Shown here in pieces: positions 9,481 to 18,890 of a stretch of 33,053 nucleotides of DNA. This DNA is from Hyphomicrobiales bacterium. Its GTDB lineage: Bacteria > Pseudomonadota > Alphaproteobacteria > Rhizobiales > Xanthobacteraceae. The stretch spans positions 1-33,053 of the forward strand of contig JAFAHL010000227.1 in NCBI GenBank assembly GCA_019237215.1, given 5' to 3'. Within the stretch, counting starts at the first letter, position 1. Each line of letters opens with the position of its first letter. The translations under genes and the position numbers were made by a program. The notes under the pieces were generated by a model, which worked only from the letters and a program-made list of their open reading frames with translations, was not told where the DNA came from and ran no database searches.

Positions 9481-11280
9481 GTGAGAGCCCCGTCCGAACC
9501 AGTCAAAGGCGGCTCCGCAGACGTGGAGGAGTTTGCCCGCAACATCGCCCGCATGATCGAAGAAGGCGGCAAGGCCTTGGCCGCCTACCTCAAGCCGCGC
9601 GAAGAAGGCCGCCACGACGATCAATATGCCGAGGTCACCGATGTGGTGAAAACGATCGGCCAGGTGGCGGATTATTGGCTGCGCGATCCGCAGCGCGCGC
9701 TCGAACTGCAATCGAGCTTGGGCAAAGCTTATCTCGACCTGTGGGCGAACACGGTCAAGCGCATGGCCGGCGAGCAGGTGCAGCCGGTCGTCCGGCCCGA
9801 GCCCAGGGACGAGCGCTTTGCCGACCCCGAGTGGTCGAGCAACCAGTTCTTCGATTTTCTCAAGCAGGCCTATCTCTTGACGGTGCAATGGGCGAACCGG
9901 CTGGTGCGCGACGCCCAAGGGATCGATCCCCATACCCGGCAGAAGGCGGATTTCTACGTGCGCCAGATCGCCAACGCGATCGCGCCCTCCAATTTCGTCC
10001 TCACCAACCCGGAGCTTTTGCGCGAAACACTCGCCTCGAACGCCGGCAATCTCGTGCGGGGAATGCACATGCTGGCCGAGGACATCGCGGCCGGGCGCGG
10101 CGACCTCAAGATCCGTCAGTCCAGATCCGAAATGTTCGAGGTCGGCCGCAATCTCGCGCTCACGCCCGGCAAGGTGATTTTCGAAAACGAGCTGATGCAA
10201 CTGATCCAATACGCGCCCACGACCCCAACCGTGCTCAAGCGGCCGGTTCTGATCGTGCCGCCGTGGATCAACAAGTTCTACATCCTCGACCTGATGCCGG
10301 AAAAATCCTTCATCAAGTGGTGTGTGGACCAGGGACTGACGGTATTCGTCATTTCCTGGGTAAATCCGGACTCAAAGCTCGCCCAGAAGAGCTTCGAAGA
10401 CTACATGCGCGAGGGCCCGCTCGCCGCGCTCGACGTCATCGAAAGGGCGACAGGCGAGCGCGAGGTCAACGCGATCGGCTATTGCGTCGGCGGGACGCTT
10501 TTGGTCGTCACGCTCGCCTACATGGCGAGCACGCGCGATCAACGCGTCGCTTCGGCGACCCTTTTCGCCGCGCAGATCGATTTCACCCATGCCGGCGATC
10601 TCAAGGTCTTCGTCGACGAGGAGCAGATCGCGGCGCGCGAGCGTGAAATGAGCGAGCGGGGCTATCTCGAAGGCAAGAAAATGGCAACCGCCTTCAACCT
10701 GCTGCGCTCGAATGATCTGATCTGGCCTTACGTCATCAACAACTATCTCAAGGGCAAGGAGCCGGCTCCATTCGACCTCTTGTACTGGAACTCGGATGCG
10801 ACGCGGATGCCGGCCGCGAACCACTCATTCTATCTGCGCAATTGCTATCTGGAGAACCGGCTCAGCAAGGGCGAGATGGTGATCGGCGGCAAGAAGCTCG
10901 ACCTCAAGAGCGTGACGGTTCCGATCTACAATCTGGCCACGCGCGAGGATCACATCGCGCCCGCGCGCTCGGTGTTGCTCGGCTCGAAGTTCTTCGGGGG
11001 ACCCGTGCGCTTCGTGCTGGCCGGTTCGGGTCACATTGCCGGGGTCGTCAATCCTCCCGACAAGATGAAGTACCAGTACTGGACCGGACCAAAACCGACC
11101 AGCGCCAACCTCGACCGGTGGCTCGCCAAGGCGAAGGAGCATGCGGGCTCGTGGTGGCCGGACTGGCTCGCGTGGATCAAAGCCCGCAATTCGGCCGAGG
11201 TCCCCGCGCGCGAGCCCGGCGGCGGCAAGCTCGCTGCGCTGGAGGACGCGCCGGGAAGCTATGTTAGGGTCAGAGATTGA
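9481..11280 (+). CDS. phaC: Class I poly(R)-hydroxyalkanoate synthase
   Basis: Lipase-like box [11 protein letters not shown] with catalytic Cys, [19 protein letters not shown]-terminal [12 protein letters not shown] and [14 protein letters not shown] start. Confidence 0.96.
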
Positions 11281-11350
11281 AGCCCGGATGCCATTGCGCC
11301 GACCGACCGGGCGTGCAGGATCTTACATCTGTTCACAGCGGAGACCCCCA

Positions 11351-12256
11351 ATGCATCGCAAAATGCTGCTCTCGATGATCGCGACGGCGACCTTCGCCGC
11401 CGGTCCAACGCTCGCGCAGGACCTCACCGGCACGCTCAAGAAGATCAAGGACACCGGCACGATCACGCTCGGCCACCGCGAGTCCTCGGTGCCGTTCTCC
11501 TACTACGACGACAAGCAGCAGGTCGTGGGCTACGCCATGGATCTGTGCGCGCGGATCGTCGATGGGGTGAAGAAAGACCTCAAGCTTGCGAACCTTGAAA
11601 CCAAGCTCAACCCGGTCACATCCGCCACGCGCATCCCGTTGATAGCCAACGGCACCGTCGACCTCGAATGCGGCTCGACCACCAACAATTTCGAGCGCCA
11701 GAAGCAGGTCTCGTTCACCATCACGCATTTCGTCACCGCGAACCGCTTCGTGTCGAAGAAGTCGGCGAACCTGAAGACGGTCGACGACCTCAAGGGCAAG
11801 ACCATCGTGTCGACCTCCGGCACCACCAATATCAAGCAGATCACCGAGATCGGGGCACAGAAGGGCCTCAACCTCAACATCCTCGCCGCCAAGGACCACG
11901 CCGAGGCGTTCCTGATGGTCGAGACCGGCCGCGCGGCTGCCTTCGTCATGGACGACATTCTGCTCTACAGCCTGGTCGCCGGATCGAAGTCGCCGAACGA
12001 TTATACGATCTCCGCCGACGCGCTTTCGGTCGAGCCCTACGCCATCATGCTCCGCCGCGACGATGCTCCATTCAAGAAAGTCGTCGATGAGGCCATGATC
12101 GCCACCTATCGCAGCGGCGCGATCAACCCGATCTACGACAAGTGGTTCCTCCAGCCGATCCCGCCCAAGGGGCTCAACCTGAACGTGCCGATGAGCGACG
12201 CCTTCAAGAAGGTGGTTGCCAGCCCGACCGACAGCGGCGACCCGGCGGTGTATTGA
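11351..12256 (+). CDS. gltI: Amino-acid ABC transporter substrate-binding protein, glutamate/aspartate type
   Basis: Signal peptide MHRKMLLSMIATATFAAGPTLAQ; HRESSVPFSYYDDKQQVVGYAMDLC, ECGSTTNNFERQKQVSF, YAIMLRRDDAPFKKVVDEAM; followed by permease and ATPase genes. Confidence 0.9.
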   Translation: MHRKMLLSMIATATFAAGPTLAQDLTGTLKKIKDTGTITLGHRESSVPFSYYDDKQQVVGYAMDLCARIVDGVKKDLKLANLETKLNPVTSATRIPLIANGTVDLECGSTTNNFERQKQVSFTITHFVTANRFVSKKSANLKTVDDLKGKTIVSTSGTTNIKQITEIGAQKGLNLNILAAKDHAEAFLMVETGRAAAFVMDDILLYSLVAGSKSPNDYTISADALSVEPYAIMLRRDDAPFKKVVDEAMIATYRSGAINPIYDKWFLQPIPPKGLNLNVPMSDAFKKVVASPTDSGDPAVY

Positions 12257-12275
12257 CCGCCGTCATCAGCCATCG

Positions 12276-12320
12276 GACATCGCTGATCAGGCACACCGTC
12301 TCGTCTTGATCACCGATGTC
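12276..12320 (+). other. Intercistronic stem-loop between gltI and gltJ
   Basis: GACATCGCTGATCA (12276-12289), 17-nt loop, TGATCACCGATGTC (12307-12320): 14-nt arms with one mismatch, 20 nt after the gltI stop. Confidence 0.65.
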
Positions 12321-12351
12321 GGGTGAGCACTCCGTGGTGAGGGGGGGCTGC

Positions 12352-13101
12352 ATGAATTACAACTGGAACTGGGGCATCTTCTTTCAGACGTCGCCGGATG
12401 GGGTGCATACCTATCTGGAGACGCTCCTCATGGGCACCGGGTGGACGCTCGCAACCGCGCTCAGCGCGTGGTGCCTGGCGCTCGCCATGGGATCGCTGAT
12501 TGGCGTCATTCGCACCACGGCCAATCCGTGGCTGGTCCGGCTCGGCAACGCCTACGTGGAATTGTTCCGCAACATCCCGCTGCTGGTGCAGATGTTCCTG
12601 TGGTATTTCGTGCTGCCCGAGCTCCTGCCGACCAGCCTGGGAGATTGGCTCAAGCAGCTTCCCGACGCCTCGTTCTACACGGCGGTGGTTTCGCTAGGCT
12701 TCTACACCTCGGCACGCATCGCCGAGCAGGTGCGCGCAGGCATCTTGAGTCTCGCTCGCGGCCAGGGCTGGGCTGCCCTCGCGCTTGGCCTCACGCCGGC
12801 GCAGTCCTACGTCCATGTGCTGTTGCCGATGGCATATCGCGTCATCCTGCCGCCGCTGACGTCCGAATTTCTCAACATCATCAAGAACAGCGCGGTCGCG
12901 CTCACCATCGGGCTCATGGAGCTCACCGCACGGGCGCGGGCCATGCAGGAATTCTCGTTCCAGGTATTCGAGGCCTTTACTGCCGCCACCGTCATCTACC
13001 TCATAATCAACATCGTGGTGACCTTCGGCATGCGCTGGGTCGAGCGGCGGGCAGCCGTGCCCGGCTTCATCGGCGCCGCACCCGCGGCGGCCGCGCACTG
13101 A
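12352..13101 (+). CDS. gltJ: Amino-acid ABC transporter permease, GltJ-type
   Basis: MNYNWNWGIFFQTSPDG start; HisMQ-type permease (NAYVELFRNIPLLVQMFLWYFVLPELLP, EQVRAGILSLARGQGWAALALGLTPAQ). Confidence 0.88.
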   Translation: MNYNWNWGIFFQTSPDGVHTYLETLLMGTGWTLATALSAWCLALAMGSLIGVIRTTANPWLVRLGNAYVELFRNIPLLVQMFLWYFVLPELLPTSLGDWLKQLPDASFYTAVVSLGFYTSARIAEQVRAGILSLARGQGWAALALGLTPAQSYVHVLLPMAYRVILPPLTSEFLNIIKNSAVALTIGLMELTARARAMQEFSFQVFEAFTAATVIYLIINIVVTFGMRWVERRAAVPGFIGAAPAAAAH

Positions 13102-13109
13102 GGCGATCG

Positions 13110-13802
13110 ATGTTCGCGGATTTCGACTTCGACGTCATCATTCGCTCGCTGCCCTACCTGTTCTACGACGGCATGACCTTCACGCTGATGCTGACCGCGC
13201 TGGCGACATGCGGCGGCATCATTTTCGGCACGCTGCTCGCCATGATGCGGCTGTCAGGCGTTGCTCCGCTCTCGCTGCTCGCCGCCGGCTACGTGAACCT
13301 GATGCGAGCGGTGCCGCTGGTGCTGGTGATCTTTTGGTTCTACTTCCTCGTTCCTTTCATCGGTCAGTGGGTCACCGGCGCCTCGCGGCCGATCCAGGTC
13401 GGAGCGTTCGCCTCCTCCCTCGTGACCTTCACGCTGTTCGAAGCCGCCTATTTCGCCGAGATCATGCGCGCGGGGATCCAGTCGATCCGGCGCGGTCAAG
13501 TGCAGGCGGCGCAGGCGCTCGGCATGACCTACTTGCAGACGATGGGCTACATCGTGCTGCCGCAGGCGTTCCGCAACATGCTGCCCGTGCTGCTCACCCA
13601 AACCATCATCCTGTTCCAGGACACGTCGCTCGTTTATGTGCTCTCGATCACGGACTTCCTCGGCGCAGCATCGAAGGTAGCGCAGCGCGACGGGCGCCTG
13701 GTAGAGATGTATTTGTTCGCCGCATCGGTCTATTTCGTGATCTCGTTCGCGGCCTCGCTGCTCGTGCGTCGGCTGCAGAGGCGGGTCGCGATCATCCGCT
13801 GA
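13110..13802 (+). CDS. gltK: Amino-acid ABC transporter permease, GltK-type
   Basis: MFADFDFDVIIRSLPYLFYDGMTFTLMLT; GYVNLMRAVPLVLVIFWFYFLVPF; EIMRAGIQSIRRGQVQAAQALGMTYLQTM. Confidence 0.88.
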   Translation: MFADFDFDVIIRSLPYLFYDGMTFTLMLTALATCGGIIFGTLLAMMRLSGVAPLSLLAAGYVNLMRAVPLVLVIFWFYFLVPFIGQWVTGASRPIQVGAFASSLVTFTLFEAAYFAEIMRAGIQSIRRGQVQAAQALGMTYLQTMGYIVLPQAFRNMLPVLLTQTIILFQDTSLVYVLSITDFLGAASKVAQRDGRLVEMYLFAASVYFVISFAASLLVRRLQRRVAIIR

Positions 13803-13811
13803 GGACCTGCC

Positions 13812-14540
13812 ATGATCACGCTCAGCAAAGTCAGCAAGTGGTATCCCAACTTTCAGGTGCTAAATCAGTGCTCGACGGAAGTCGCCAAGGGCGAAGTCGT
13901 CGTGGTGTGTGGTCCATCGGGTTCCGGCAAGTCGACGCTCATCAAATGCGTCAACGGGCTCGAACCGTTCCAGGAGGGCGCCATCACGGTCGCCGGCATT
14001 TCCCTGAACGACCCCAAGACCGACCTGCCGAAGCTGCGCGCCCGCATCGGCATGGTATTTCAGCATTTCGAGCTGTTCCCGCATCTCACCGTGACGCGCA
14101 ATCTCGAACTGGCGCAGATCAAGGTGCTCGGCCGCAGCCAGGATGAGGCGGCGGCGAAAGGCATGCGCCTGCTCGAACGTGTCGGTTTGAGCGCGCACGC
14201 TCGCAAGTATCCGGGCGAGCTTTCCGGCGGACAGCAGCAGCGGGTCGCGATTGCGCGTGCGCTCGCCATGGATCCGATCGCCATGCTGTTCGATGAGCCG
14301 ACTTCCGCGCTCGACCCCGAGATGATCAACGAGGTGCTCGACGTCATGGTGGCGCTCGCCAAGGAAGGCATGACCATGATGGTGGTCACCCACGAAATGG
14401 GTTTTGCACGCAGGGTGGCCCACCGGGTGGTGTTCATGGACAAGGGCCAGATCGTCGAAGACGCGCCGACGCCCGAATTCTTCGGCAAGCCGCGCAGCGA
14501 GCGCGCCCAGGCTTTTCTGTCGAAGATTTTGCAGCATTGA
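13812..14540 (+). CDS. gltL: Amino-acid ABC transporter ATP-binding protein, GltL-type
   Basis: Walker A GPSGSGKSTLIKC, signature LSGGQQQRVAIARALAMDP, Walker B AMLFDEPTSALDPE. Confidence 0.93.
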   Translation: MITLSKVSKWYPNFQVLNQCSTEVAKGEVVVVCGPSGSGKSTLIKCVNGLEPFQEGAITVAGISLNDPKTDLPKLRARIGMVFQHFELFPHLTVTRNLELAQIKVLGRSQDEAAAKGMRLLERVGLSAHARKYPGELSGGQQQRVAIARALAMDPIAMLFDEPTSALDPEMINEVLDVMVALAKEGMTMMVVTHEMGFARRVAHRVVFMDKGQIVEDAPTPEFFGKPRSERAQAFLSKILQH

Positions 14541-14614: not shown

Positions 14615-15670
14615 TCACGGAAACAGCGCGACCTGCTCGAGCCCCAGCGTCTCAGGAAAGCCGAGCATGAGGTTCATGTTCTGCACGGCTTGGCCGGAGG
14701 CGCCCTTGGCAAGGTTGTCGAGCGCCGAGCAGATGATGGCGCGGCCTTCGACCCGGTCGTTCGCCACTCCGATGAACGTCATGTTGGAGCCGCGCACATG
14801 GCGGGTTTGCGGCATTTCGCCGAACGGCAGAACATGCACGAACGGCTCCCCCGCGTAAGACTTCAACAGGATCGCATGCAGATCTTGGGGCGAGGTCCTG
14901 AGCCCGCGCACGTAGATCGTCGACAGGATTCCCCGGTTCATGGGCACGAGATGCGGCGTGAAGCTGACGATGACGTCGCGCCCCGCAGCCTTGGAAAATT
15001 CCTGATCGAGCTCCGCCATGTGGCGGTGATGGCCCACGCCGTAGGGATGGAAGCCCTCCGAGACCTCCGAGAACAGCATCTCCTCTTTCGCCGCCCTCCC
15101 CGCCCCGGTCATGCCCGATTTGGCGTCGATCACGATCTCGTCGGGATCGATGGCCTTCGCGCGCAAGAGCGGGATGAGGGGCAGCTCCGCGCAGCTCGTG
15201 TAGCAGCCGGGGTTGGCGACCAGCCGCGCGGTCTTGATCTTGTGGCGGTAGATTTCCGTAAGCCCATAGACCGCCTCCTTTTGCAGGTCCGAGGCATGGT
15301 GCTCGTGGCCATACCAGCGGGCATAGGCGGCGGTGTCGCCGAGGCGAAAATCGGCGGAGAGATCGACCACCTTGGTGGTCGGAGCCTTGGCGAGCAAGTC
15401 CTTGATGACCGTCTGCGTGGTCGCGTGCGGCAGCGCGCAGAAGGCAAGGTCGAGCGCGGCCTTCTTCCAATCGACGCCATCGATCGCAACGAGCTTCGGC
15501 AGCGCATAGGGCGAGAACTGCGGGAAGACTTGACGCATGTGCTGGCCGGCGCGGCGCTCCGCGGTGAGCAGCGCGATCTCGACCCGCGGATGGGGAATGA
15601 GGAGCCGCAGCAGCTCCGCACCGGTATAGCCGGACGCGCCGAGCACGCCGATCTTAGCCTTGTCAGCCAT
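14615..15670 (-). CDS. argC: N-acetyl-gamma-glutamyl-phosphate reductase
   Basis: GVLGASGYTGAELLRLL, FCALPHATTQ, active-site region LVANPGCYTSCAELPLIPLL, GVGHHRHMAE. Confidence 0.96.
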   Translation of the reverse strand: MADKAKIGVLGASGYTGAELLRLLIPHPRVEIALLTAERRAGQHMRQVFPQFSPYALPKLVAIDGVDWKKAALDLAFCALPHATTQTVIKDLLAKAPTTKVVDLSADFRLGDTAAYARWYGHEHHASDLQKEAVYGLTEIYRHKIKTARLVANPGCYTSCAELPLIPLLRAKAIDPDEIVIDAKSGMTGAGRAAKEEMLFSEVSEGFHPYGVGHHRHMAELDQEFSKAAGRDVIVSFTPHLVPMNRGILSTIYVRGLRTSPQDLHAILLKSYAGEPFVHVLPFGEMPQTRHVRGSNMTFIGVANDRVEGRAIICSALDNLAKGASGQAVQNMNLMLGFPETLGLEQVALFP

Positions 15671-16337
15671 GGCTCAAGTCCTTCCCGTCGGTCGCCTGTT
15701 CGTATGCCAAGTGCGGCCGCAACGCGACCATCCGTGCTGCAATCGCGTGCGCGGACGGCCTGTTCTGCTCGCGCAGCGCGCGGACAACGGCGACGTGATC
15801 GGCATCGGCCTTGTGCTGATTGAGCTTGAAGCTGCCCTCGACGGTCTCGATCGTCATCTCGATCGCGACAATCGACTCCATCAGCGTCGCGCGACGTTGC
15901 GATGACAACATGCCGTCAGCGACCCAGGGCGGCTTCGGCGCCAGGGCCGATTCGAATTGCGCCGCAAGACGATCGAGATGGTCGGCCGTGTGGGAGGCCG
16001 GGACAACATGCACGGGCCCGGAGAGCTGCACGGTCTCGTAGAGCCAAGTCGGCACCTGCTCGGCACTCGCGTACCAATGCGGCGATACATAAGCATCGTC
16101 GCCGGCAACGGCAATCAGCCATGGTCCACCTTTGGTCGCGAGATGGGCGAGCGGATTGGGGCGTGCGACATGAAATTGGAGGCGCGGCAGCCGGCCGTTC
16201 GCTTCCATCACATGGAACGGCAGCAGCGCCGCCACCGGGCGGCCGCCTTCACAAGCGATCACTTGGCCGAAGCCGCGCGCGGCCGCAAACGCAAGGCCGA
16301 CGGCGTGGTGAATCTTGAAAGCGGGGTGGACGTACAT
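15663..16337 (-). CDS. PaiB-like FMN-binding regulatory protein
   Basis: MYVHPAFKIHH start; HVARPNPLAHL, GGPWLIAVAGDDAYVSPHWYAS, VPTWLYETVQLSGPVHVV are typical of PaiB. Overlaps the argC start by 8 bp. Confidence 0.88.
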   Translation of the reverse strand: MYVHPAFKIHHAVGLAFAAARGFGQVIACEGGRPVAALLPFHVMEANGRLPRLQFHVARPNPLAHLATKGGPWLIAVAGDDAYVSPHWYASAEQVPTWLYETVQLSGPVHVVPASHTADHLDRLAAQFESALAPKPPWVADGMLSSQRRATLMESIVAIEMTIETVEGSFKLNQHKADADHVAVVRALREQNRPSAHAIAARMVALRPHLAYEQATDGKDLSHG

Positions 16338-16399
16338 GGTCGCGCTCCGATGCGAGAGGCGGCCGGAGCTCGGTCATGGCGCGGGGGTCGAGAGACGAT

Positions 16400-16465
16400 G
16401 TGCCGCGGAGCCGAGTCCGGCGGCACGGGTGATGATCACGCGCGATCGCGCGCCCGTGCCGCGGA
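16400..16465. promoter_or_regulatory. Three-segment competing inverted-repeat structure in a divergent intergenic region
   Basis: GTGCCGCGGA (16400-16409), TCCGGCGGCACGGG (16416-16429), CCCGTGCCGCGGA (16453-16465); 14-bp palindrome CGCGCGATCGCGCG (16439-16452) inside the second loop. Confidence 0.6.
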
Positions 16466-16634
16466 AGCGCGGCGGCGCAACAATGCGTGGCGAGCGATCA
16501 TCGTCATGGGCCGCCGCTATAGACGCCAACACGGTGTCCGTCAAGCGCACGCGCACACCCGCGCGGCCCAGCCATGGACGACGACCGAAGCGCCCGCTAT
16601 TTCGCCCACCAACGCAACGCGATAAGGCTAGGAG

Positions 16635-18890
16635 ATGGGGATCGCCGACCAGCCAGCGAGCCAAACGACCCAGGGCGCGACGTCCAGGCGCGCCATGCTG
16701 CTCGCGACGTTTACCGCCGCCATCACCCTCAGCGCCGCGTTGCTGTTCATGGTGCAGCCGATGTTTACCAAGATGGTGCTGCCCCGTTTTGGCGGCGCGC
16801 CGTCGGTGTGGTCGGTGGCCATCGTGTACTTCCAGACCGCGCTGCTCGCGGGCTACGCCTACGCCCACTTGCTGACGCGCTACGCGGGCCCTCGCGTGTC
16901 GGTCGTGATCCATCTCGCTGTGATGGTCGCCGCTGCATTCGCGCTGCCACTGTCGATCCCCACCGGCTGGGACCGCCCGCCGGCAGCAGCCGAAGCGCTG
17001 TGGCTGATGGGATTGTTCACGGCCTCGATCGGCCTGCCGTTTTTTGCGCTCGCCGCCAATAGCCCTTTGCTGCAGGCCTGGTTCGCGCGCACCGACCACC
17101 CCGCCGCGAAAGACCCCTATTTCCTCTATGCCGCCAGCAATGTCGGAAGCTTCCTCGCGCTCGTATCCTATCCGATCGTGATTGAGCCCTTCGTGCGGCT
17201 CGGCGACCAAGCATTGTCGTGGTCGATCGGCTTTTGCTCGCTCATTGCACTGCTCGCCGGCTGCGGGGCGCTGCGATGGCATTCGCCGCACGAAAATGTG
17301 CCTGCCGACAGCACTGCAGAGGCCCCGCCGAGCTGGAAGGACGCCGGCTTTTGGATGGCGCTCGCGGCGGTGCCCGCGGGCCTTCTCGTCGCGGTGACCG
17401 CGCATATTTCAACGGATGTGGCGGCGGTGCCGCTCCTTTGGGTTCTTCCGCTCGCGCTCTATCTCTTGACCTTCGTCATCGTGTTTGCACGCCAGCCGAT
17501 CATTCCGCACCGGCTCGTGGTCGCCGTGCAGCCTTTGTTCATCATCGCGCTCGTTGCCGTCATCATCTTCGATCCGATCAAGACCATCGTCGGGATCCTC
17601 GCCGTGCACCTCGCGGTGTTTTTCGTCAACGCGTTGATGTGCCATGGCGAGCTTGCGCGCACGAGGCCGGCGCCGCGATACCTCACCGCCTTCTACCTCT
17701 GGATATCGGCGGGCGGCGTGATCGGCGGCATCGGGGCCGGATTGATCGCGCCTTATGTGTTCAACTGGGTGGCGGAATATCCGATCCTGATTGCGCTTGC
17801 GGTGCTGTGCCGGCCGGGTATCGCGCTGCCGGGCCAGCGCCTTCAGCGCTACTTCCTCTTCGGCGGCCTTGCAGCCGCCGTGCTCGTCCTCATCGTCTGC
17901 GCGCTATATCCGGTCGTGCTCAGCGAGACCGCCTTCAACTGGACCGTGGCCACGCTCTTGGCCGCGAGCGCGTTGTTCTGGCGCGCGCCATTGCCGTTCG
18001 CCGCGACCATCGCCTTCATCCTTCTCGCCTATCACAGCATCGTCGAGCAACCCGGCACGACGTCGGTGCGCAGTTTCTTCGGCGTCGCCAAGATCACGGA
18101 GACCGCGGACGGCCAGTTCCGTCTTCTACAGCACGGGACCACGCTTCATGGCGGGCAGCGTATCCGCGAAGCCAACGGTCGGCTGGCGGCGATCGATCCG
18201 CCGGAACTGCTGCTTTACTACTGGGATGGTTCCGCCATCTCGGAGACCTTCGCGGCGGTGCGCGCGCGCCTCGACCGGCCGATCCGTTTTGCGGTGATAG
18301 GCCTTGGCGCAGGCTCGTTGGCCTGCCGCGCCGCGCCGGACGATACCGTGCATTATTATGAGATCGACCCTGCCATCATCCGCATTGCTCGCGACCCATA
18401 TCTGTTCAGTTTTCTGTGGGTGTGTCGCCCGGACGTGCCGATTATCCTCGGTGACGCGCGGCTCACGCTCGCCGAAGCGCCCGACGGCGCCTACGACCTC
18501 ATCGTCGTCGATGCCTTCTCCTCCGACGCGATCCCCATCCATCTGCTCACGCGTGAAGCCATGGCGATGTACCTCAAGAAGCTCAGTCCGCACGGGATGG
18601 TGGCGATGCACGTGTCGAACCGGCACCTCGAGCTCGCCTCGGTGGTCACCGGCATCGCCGCGGCGAACGGCCTGATCACGCGCGTCAGCGACAGCTCCGA
18701 CCTCGACGAGGCAGCCAATCCCTACAAGTTCGTCGGCACGGTCGCGGCGGTTGCGCGCAGCGAAGAGGATTTCGGCACGCTCAGGCAGGCGCGGGATTGG
18801 GCGCCCGCGGCGCCCGATCCGAGCCAATGGGTGTGGACCGACGATTATTGCAATATCGTCGGCGCGTTGCTGCGCAAGCTCAACGAGTGA
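16635..18890 (+). CDS. Fused multi-TM membrane protein / spermidine-synthase-like methyltransferase-fold protein
   Basis: About 450 aa of hydrophobic TM segments, then a Rossmann-like domain (FAVIGLGAGSLACRA, VHYYEIDPAIIRIA, ILGDARLTLAEAPDGAYDLIVVDAFSSDAIPIHLLTREA). Confidence 0.88.
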   Translation: MGIADQPASQTTQGATSRRAMLLATFTAAITLSAALLFMVQPMFTKMVLPRFGGAPSVWSVAIVYFQTALLAGYAYAHLLTRYAGPRVSVVIHLAVMVAAAFALPLSIPTGWDRPPAAAEALWLMGLFTASIGLPFFALAANSPLLQAWFARTDHPAAKDPYFLYAASNVGSFLALVSYPIVIEPFVRLGDQALSWSIGFCSLIALLAGCGALRWHSPHENVPADSTAEAPPSWKDAGFWMALAAVPAGLLVAVTAHISTDVAAVPLLWVLPLALYLLTFVIVFARQPIIPHRLVVAVQPLFIIALVAVIIFDPIKTIVGILAVHLAVFFVNALMCHGELARTRPAPRYLTAFYLWISAGGVIGGIGAGLIAPYVFNWVAEYPILIALAVLCRPGIALPGQRLQRYFLFGGLAAAVLVLIVCALYPVVLSETAFNWTVATLLAASALFWRAPLPFAATIAFILLAYHSIVEQPGTTSVRSFFGVAKITETADGQFRLLQHGTTLHGGQRIREANGRLAAIDPPELLLYYWDGSAISETFAAVRARLDRPIRFAVIGLGAGSLACRAAPDDTVHYYEIDPAIIRIARDPYLFSFLWVCRPDVPIILGDARLTLAEAPDGAYDLIVVDAFSSDAIPIHLLTREAMAMYLKKLSPHGMVAMHVSNRHLELASVVTGIAAANGLITRVSDSSDLDEAANPYKFVGTVAAVARSEEDFGTLRQARDWAPAAPDPSQWVWTDDYCNIVGALLRKLNE

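Follow-up and report, generated by a model that had tools for sequence, protein, structure and literature searches.

The 297-bp region at positions 16338 to 16634 of the window, the whole stretch of 33,053 nucleotides that was analysed, very probably (probability roughly 0.86) carries a ribosome-mediated, arginine-sensing transcription attenuator in the 5' leader of a paiB-argC operon on the minus strand. A short leader ORF with consecutive arginine codons is followed there by two mutually exclusive helices, and both the codons and the helices are conserved in the family, as in classical amino-acid transcription attenuators.

Genes and anatomy of the leader

The first structural gene of the operon is a paiB-like gene (15663..16337, minus strand; Pfam FMN_bind_2, E = 9.9e-36). 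It overlaps by 8 bp with argC (14615..15670, minus strand), the second gene, which encodes the arginine-biosynthesis enzyme N-acetyl-gamma-glutamyl-phosphate reductase (TIGR01850 equivalog; score 410.7 bits, cut-off 233.6) and is the conserved target of the leader. On the other side of the region, a fused MFS/spermidine synthase gene is located on the plus strand (16635-18890; NF037959). The first-pass annotation had named a PaiB-like and a spermidine-synthase-like gene as neighbours, and both do flank the region, but the latter is not a conserved partner. A plus-strand leader of the spermidine-synthase-like gene was rejected because this neighbour varies among relatives while paiB or argC is constant. 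The minus strand, the leader ORF with its arginine run, the promoter and the argC gene behind paiB were absent from the first reading. ORFs resembling an amino-acid-type ABC transporter were seen at 11141-14540 (plus strand), convergent towards argC; the ATPase was recognised by Pfam, and the binding protein and permeases were judged from their translations.

The predicted promoter on the minus strand has the sequence TTGACG-N17-TATAGC, with the -35 box at 16539..16544 and the -10 box at 16516..16521. The pair was missing from a generic promoter scan because the scan requires T as the sixth -10 position. The ATG of the leader ORF (16507) follows 8 nt further on, and transcription would start at or beside it. 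The ORF (16436..16507, minus strand) is probably leaderless and has 23 codons, with the translation MTMIARHALLRRRASAARARDRA up to the stop. Arg11 to Arg13, encoded by CGC CGC CGC (16469..16477), are the putative sensing codons. Region 1 (16453..16465), the 5' arm of the antiterminator, sits inside the ORF a few bases past the arginine run. Region 2 (16416..16429), the arm common to both hairpins, starts just past the stop codon of the ORF and contains the core TGCCGC(C/T)GGA, which is near-invariant among relatives. Region 3 (16400..16409), the 3' arm of the terminator-like hairpin, comes next and is followed by a pyrimidine-rich tail (16386..16399) with a weak T tract. A generic scan called no intrinsic terminator in the window.

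Regions 3, 2 and 1 are segments 1, 2 and 3 of the first-pass annotation, and a check of the sequence reproduced their positions exactly, together with all the pairings described. Segment 2 pairs with segment 1 or with segment 3 and never with both, since it is common to the two pairings. The remaining elements were also found at the positions given for them. The GC block GCGGCGGC (16469-16476) is the complement of the arginine-codon run, and the block GCCGCCGC (16510-16517) covers part of the -10 box and the bases downstream of it, so that neither is a structural part. The palindrome CGCGCGATCGCGCG (16439-16452), in the loop of the hairpin of segments 3 and 2, is absent from the conserved features of relatives and was rejected as a functional site on that ground.

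When the 297-bp region was shuffled 2000 times with its dinucleotides preserved, a comparable competing triple arose in 42 cases (2.1%); by composition alone the triple is only mildly unusual, which is weak evidence in such GC-rich sequence. The whole region folded about as its shuffles did on both strands (z of -0.96 and -0.42). For the minus-strand leader alone (16385-16508) the folding z was -2.77, a value reached by 2 of 200 shuffles. It is conservation, not composition, that raises the competing segments clearly above chance.

Conservation of the leader in the family

A DNA search of the window's own genome and 60 relatives gave a match in 11 of these 61. A covariance model built from ten leaders matched 122 of 200 family genomes, which represent 36 of the 47 genera sampled. 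Almost all of the 122 had a single strong match, and 78 of the 200 had no match. Among 110 family loci that were fetched, 108 contained a short leader ORF with an arginine run. The next gene after these 108 leaders was paiB in 52, at a median of 176 nt from the leader ATG, and argC directly in 56, at a median of 187.5 nt. Independent samples matter here because the covariance model itself contains the CGC run. In a search with ArgC only, 17 named loci had an ArgC identity of 76% or more, and 16 of them carried the leader (lists judged by eye). The leader-bearing loci found in this way include Rhodopseudomonas, Afipia and Pseudolabrys, and the family was therefore taken as Xanthobacteraceae in the sense of GTDB. 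An Ancylobacter-like branch (ArgC about 65% identical) was without the leader. As the 2.1% of shuffles with a comparable triple are set against an element found across so many genera, with covarying helices, the probability that the repeats are chance palindromes in GC-rich DNA is practically negligible.

Several further observations were made in these loci. A PaiB-like FMN-binding protein, such as that encoded at 15663-16337 (minus strand), recurs within an arginine operon, between leader and argC, in the 52 paiB-containing loci out of 108. Large complete genomes inferred from genome features and gene order to be Bradyrhizobium have the order leader, paiB, second argC-like gene, argC; in loci L058, L065 and L070 this second, distant gene between paiB and the standard argC has a product about 30% identical to ArgC. 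One genome (G004; loci L005 and L013) has an unusually long leader of 36 amino acids with two arginine clusters, a truncated region 3 and an argC start very close behind. The Rfam COG3860 RNA (RF02940) was found near the argC leader in two relatives (L041:1332-1385 and L053:737-790, both minus strand).

Three consecutive arginines are read in frame 0 of the leader in 103 of the 108 cases; the other two frames contain them in 5 and 3. The arginine run begins at codon 8 to 15 (median 11), and the leader peptide has a length of 16 to 48 amino acids (median 24). In 78 representatives the run was encoded by 222 CGC and 57 CGT codons; the basic residue is arginine and hardly ever lysine. The interchange of CGC and CGT within a conserved arginine run points to selection on the amino acid. 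Arginine codons are GC-rich and so are also suited to pairing. For 100 of the 108 leaders a -35/-10 pair could be recognised upstream, and its spacer was 17 bp in 94 of these 100. In 97 of the 100 the leader ATG lies 6 to 8 nt past the -10 box, which is the usual position of the start site; this makes a leaderless ORF probable, as in trpL of Sinorhizobium.

These results also bear on the multi-site operator that had been proposed as another option, in which the repeats would serve paiB and the divergent spermidine-synthase-like gene as a DNA operator. Palindromes between divergent genes would suit such a function, but the element goes with paiB or argC and not with the other neighbour, which varies, conservation follows the codon frame and RNA-like pairing, the repeats lie downstream of the promoter and the predicted start site, and the central palindrome is unconserved. 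A DNA operator is thus very improbable. The riboswitch option found no support either. No Rfam match above threshold was obtained at the leader, in the window or in the relatives' leaders, and a riboswitch or known RNA family was rejected.

Pairing of the competing regions

The pairing of each region with its own partner was compared with its pairing with foreign partners in 74 representatives of less than 80% identity, using 5000 permutations. Region 1 with its own region 2 gave -24.57 kcal/mol, compared with -21.93 kcal/mol for foreign partners, and region 2 with its own region 3 gave -16.72 compared with -15.88 kcal/mol. Neither value was reached in any of the 5000 permutations. The part of the ORF before the arginine run, used as a negative control, showed no effect (4386 of 5000 permutations). 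Columnwise pair counts on 28 leaders showed 95.2% paired cells for regions 2 and 3 and 76.8% for regions 1 and 2, both clearly above every slid version. The scores for paired cells or covariation of the two helices were reached by at most 5 of 500 shuffles. Since much of each helix is invariant, the compensation rests on few columns, and kinship among the sequences remains a caveat of the covariation statistics. The comparison of orthologous regions, which the first-pass annotation had named as a check, thus found its segments conserved and covarying in relatives.

Behind the hairpin of regions 2 and 3, the frequency of T at tail positions 5 to 8 was 0.50 to 0.69 in the 74 leaders, compared with 0.18 in promoter and ORF. 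The T tract is weak in the window and in many family members, so that intrinsic termination may be inefficient.

A second family with the same plan

One weak match of the covariance model lay directly upstream of argC in another family of the same order, and a second family of leaders, believed to be that of Phreatobacter, was found in this way. An arginine-run leader was present before argC in 12 of 12 genomes, so that consecutive codons for the end product, a mark of classical attenuators, were found in the leader ORF in both families (108 of 110 and 12 of 12 cases). The plan includes a TTGACA-type promoter, an ATG at the expected start and a leader peptide of typically 16 amino acids (for example MNMIATSTRRRRLILR). 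A canonical terminator (for example GCCGCGCTCCACAGCGCGGC), followed by T6 to T8, precedes argC. The sequence 5' of the terminator can pair with its left arm; this region 1 is located directly past the stop codon and would be covered by a ribosome terminating there. No other weak model match outside the window's family lay beside argC. About 70 further argC upstream regions from Alphaproteobacteria were scanned without yielding a convincing leader; in many of them argC lies directly behind rpsI. If the attenuator is real, attenuation may have arisen where the link between argC and rpsI had been lost.

The guess of an attenuator-type leader, made in the first-pass annotation, gained support from conservation, covariation and this second family with its canonical terminator. 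The arginine-codon switch could also be real with a different outcome, in which the hairpin of regions 2 and 3 acts via Rho-dependent termination, RNA decay or blocked translation of paiB. Such an outcome would fit the T tract, which is weak in the window and in many other members of the family, and the speF leader of Salmonella provides a precedent (PMC6386406). Against it, the second family has canonical intrinsic terminators at the same position, and the tail is enriched in T in the window's family too. The start of paiB or argC is far from the hairpin (176 to 188 nt from the leader ATG), so that a direct block of the start is not obvious. A non-intrinsic outcome is considered rather unlikely.

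Model of the switch

The switch was modelled by equilibrium folding, with no kinetics, of the RNA downstream of a ribosome that was placed codon by codon with its edge at 13 nt. For the window, the occupancy of the terminator did not exceed 0.09 as long as the A site was no further than Arg codon 12; with the A site anywhere between Arg codon 13 and the stop codon it was 0.87. The switch point thus lies between codons 12 and 13, and the last arginine codon no longer blocks the terminator. With edges of 11 and 15 nt the switch point moved by about one codon. The free RNA of the window had only 0.56 terminator. In the 74 leaders the occupancy was 0.40 at the first arginine codon and 0.83 at the stop; shuffling the letters of region 1 increased the former value to 0.65. 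In the second family a minimum of 0.51 to 0.55 was found exactly at the first two arginine codons, and values of about 1.0 were found well before and after them. In this equilibrium model, a stall at the arginine codons prevents the terminator, and reading to the stop codon allows it.

From the computed anatomy, conservation, covariation and switch, we infer a start site, termination and a response to arginine as follows. Transcription would start at or beside the ATG of the short, probably leaderless ORF. With ample Arg-tRNA, the ribosome would pass the arginine run, proceed to the stop codon and cover region 1; region 2 would then pair with region 3, and the resulting terminator-like hairpin would stop transcription before paiB-argC. 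Under a shortage of Arg-tRNA it would wait at the arginine run, leaving region 1 free to capture region 2. The antiterminator formed by regions 1 and 2 would block the terminator, and paiB-argC would be transcribed. Since the target includes an arginine-synthesis gene, the signal is likely charged tRNA-Arg and not polyamine or FMN.

Arginine regulation

The arginine repressor ArgR (TIGR01529, PF01316) was found in none of 20 genomes, including that of the window, while each model was positive in 9 of 14 control genomes. ArgR is reported to be conserved in gammaproteobacteria and absent from other classes (PMC5343134). No arginine-rich leader was present at argG, argD-argF and argJ in eight genomes. 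Control may thus act at argC itself, or the remaining arg genes are coordinated in some other way. By analogy with the trans functions of the trp leader of Sinorhizobium meliloti, the terminated leaderless mRNA (about 100 to 130 nt) or the arginine-rich peptide might also act in trans and convey the arginine signal to the other arg genes; this reading seems doubtful.

In five loci (L294, L295, L297, L299 and L300) a promoter-like TTGAC-N17 element was seen some 1.3 kb ahead of argF, a position that seems to precede argD. It is followed by a similar stretch with a GTG start (GTGCC.CC...) in several genomes, with peptide readings of MPPFGAAVFF, MPPEEAAHFI, MPPFRAARFV and the like. This element had no Rfam match and could be another conserved leader of an arginine operon.

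Strings of basic residues can slow ribosomes. The arginine run might accordingly stall the ribosome as a basic nascent peptide or through slow codons, and sense general translation speed or ribosome-targeting drugs rather than the supply of arginine; a Sinorhizobium leader peptide has drug-linked functions (PMC7298713). The constant target, however, is an arginine-synthesis gene, the run consists of arginine and hardly ever of lysine, mostly as CGC and CGT, and the 20 genomes searched had no ArgR to control arginine otherwise. A general stall sensor is quite improbable on these grounds.

If real, the proposed attenuator offers a point of arginine control that can be tested directly, in the family of Rhodopseudomonas, Afipia and, judged from genome features, Bradyrhizobium.

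Comparison with known systems

Classical attenuators are known for His, Leu, Ile/Val, Thr and Phe besides Trp, and attenuation in bacteria has reportedly been surveyed by Vitreschak et al. (2004) and Lopatovskaya et al. (2010). No description of the element was found in the open-access literature, a scope outside which such older surveys fall, so that priority is uncertain. Open-access text likewise contained no earlier report of a classical attenuator with arginine codons on an arginine-biosynthesis gene. The mechanism itself is known for other amino acids.

The fungal arg-2/CPA1 arginine attenuator peptide is a nascent peptide that stalls the ribosome at high arginine. As proposed for the argC leader, an arginine-biosynthesis gene is tuned there through a short ORF upstream of it, but the system is eukaryotic and works without competing hairpins or transcription termination. 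The uORFC-8-2 motif before cysS in Rhodobacterales is a tandem-codon uORF with the features expected of ribosome-mediated attenuation (PMC8632094). Like the argC leader it is alphaproteobacterial and repeats the codons of a single amino acid, but it has cysteine codons, an aminoacyl-tRNA synthetase as target and a host in another order.

In the speF leader of Salmonella, the consecutive arginine codons of orf34 (SpeFL) sense arginine and switch the RNA structure; they set RNA stability, and speF output is controlled via Rho, RNase G and translation (PMC6386406). The argC leader is predicted to share the sensing of arginine by consecutive codons in a leader ORF. The Salmonella leader controls polyamine synthesis, encodes a DUF2618 peptide with a Shine-Dalgarno start and is not homologous to the argC leader. 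The latter is not a DUF2618-type leader before speF, as its peptide matched no NCBIfam model and its target is argC or paiB-argC.

The trpLE(G) attenuator of S. meliloti (rnTrpL/peTrpL) has been proven by experiment, including its trans functions (PMC7298713, PMC10117765). It senses tryptophan while the argC leader would sense arginine, and the leader sequence and target differ. Both are alphaproteobacterial and have a run of codons for the end product and two mutually exclusive structures before a biosynthesis gene, and the argC leader probably shares the leaderless short ORF at the 5' end of the transcript.
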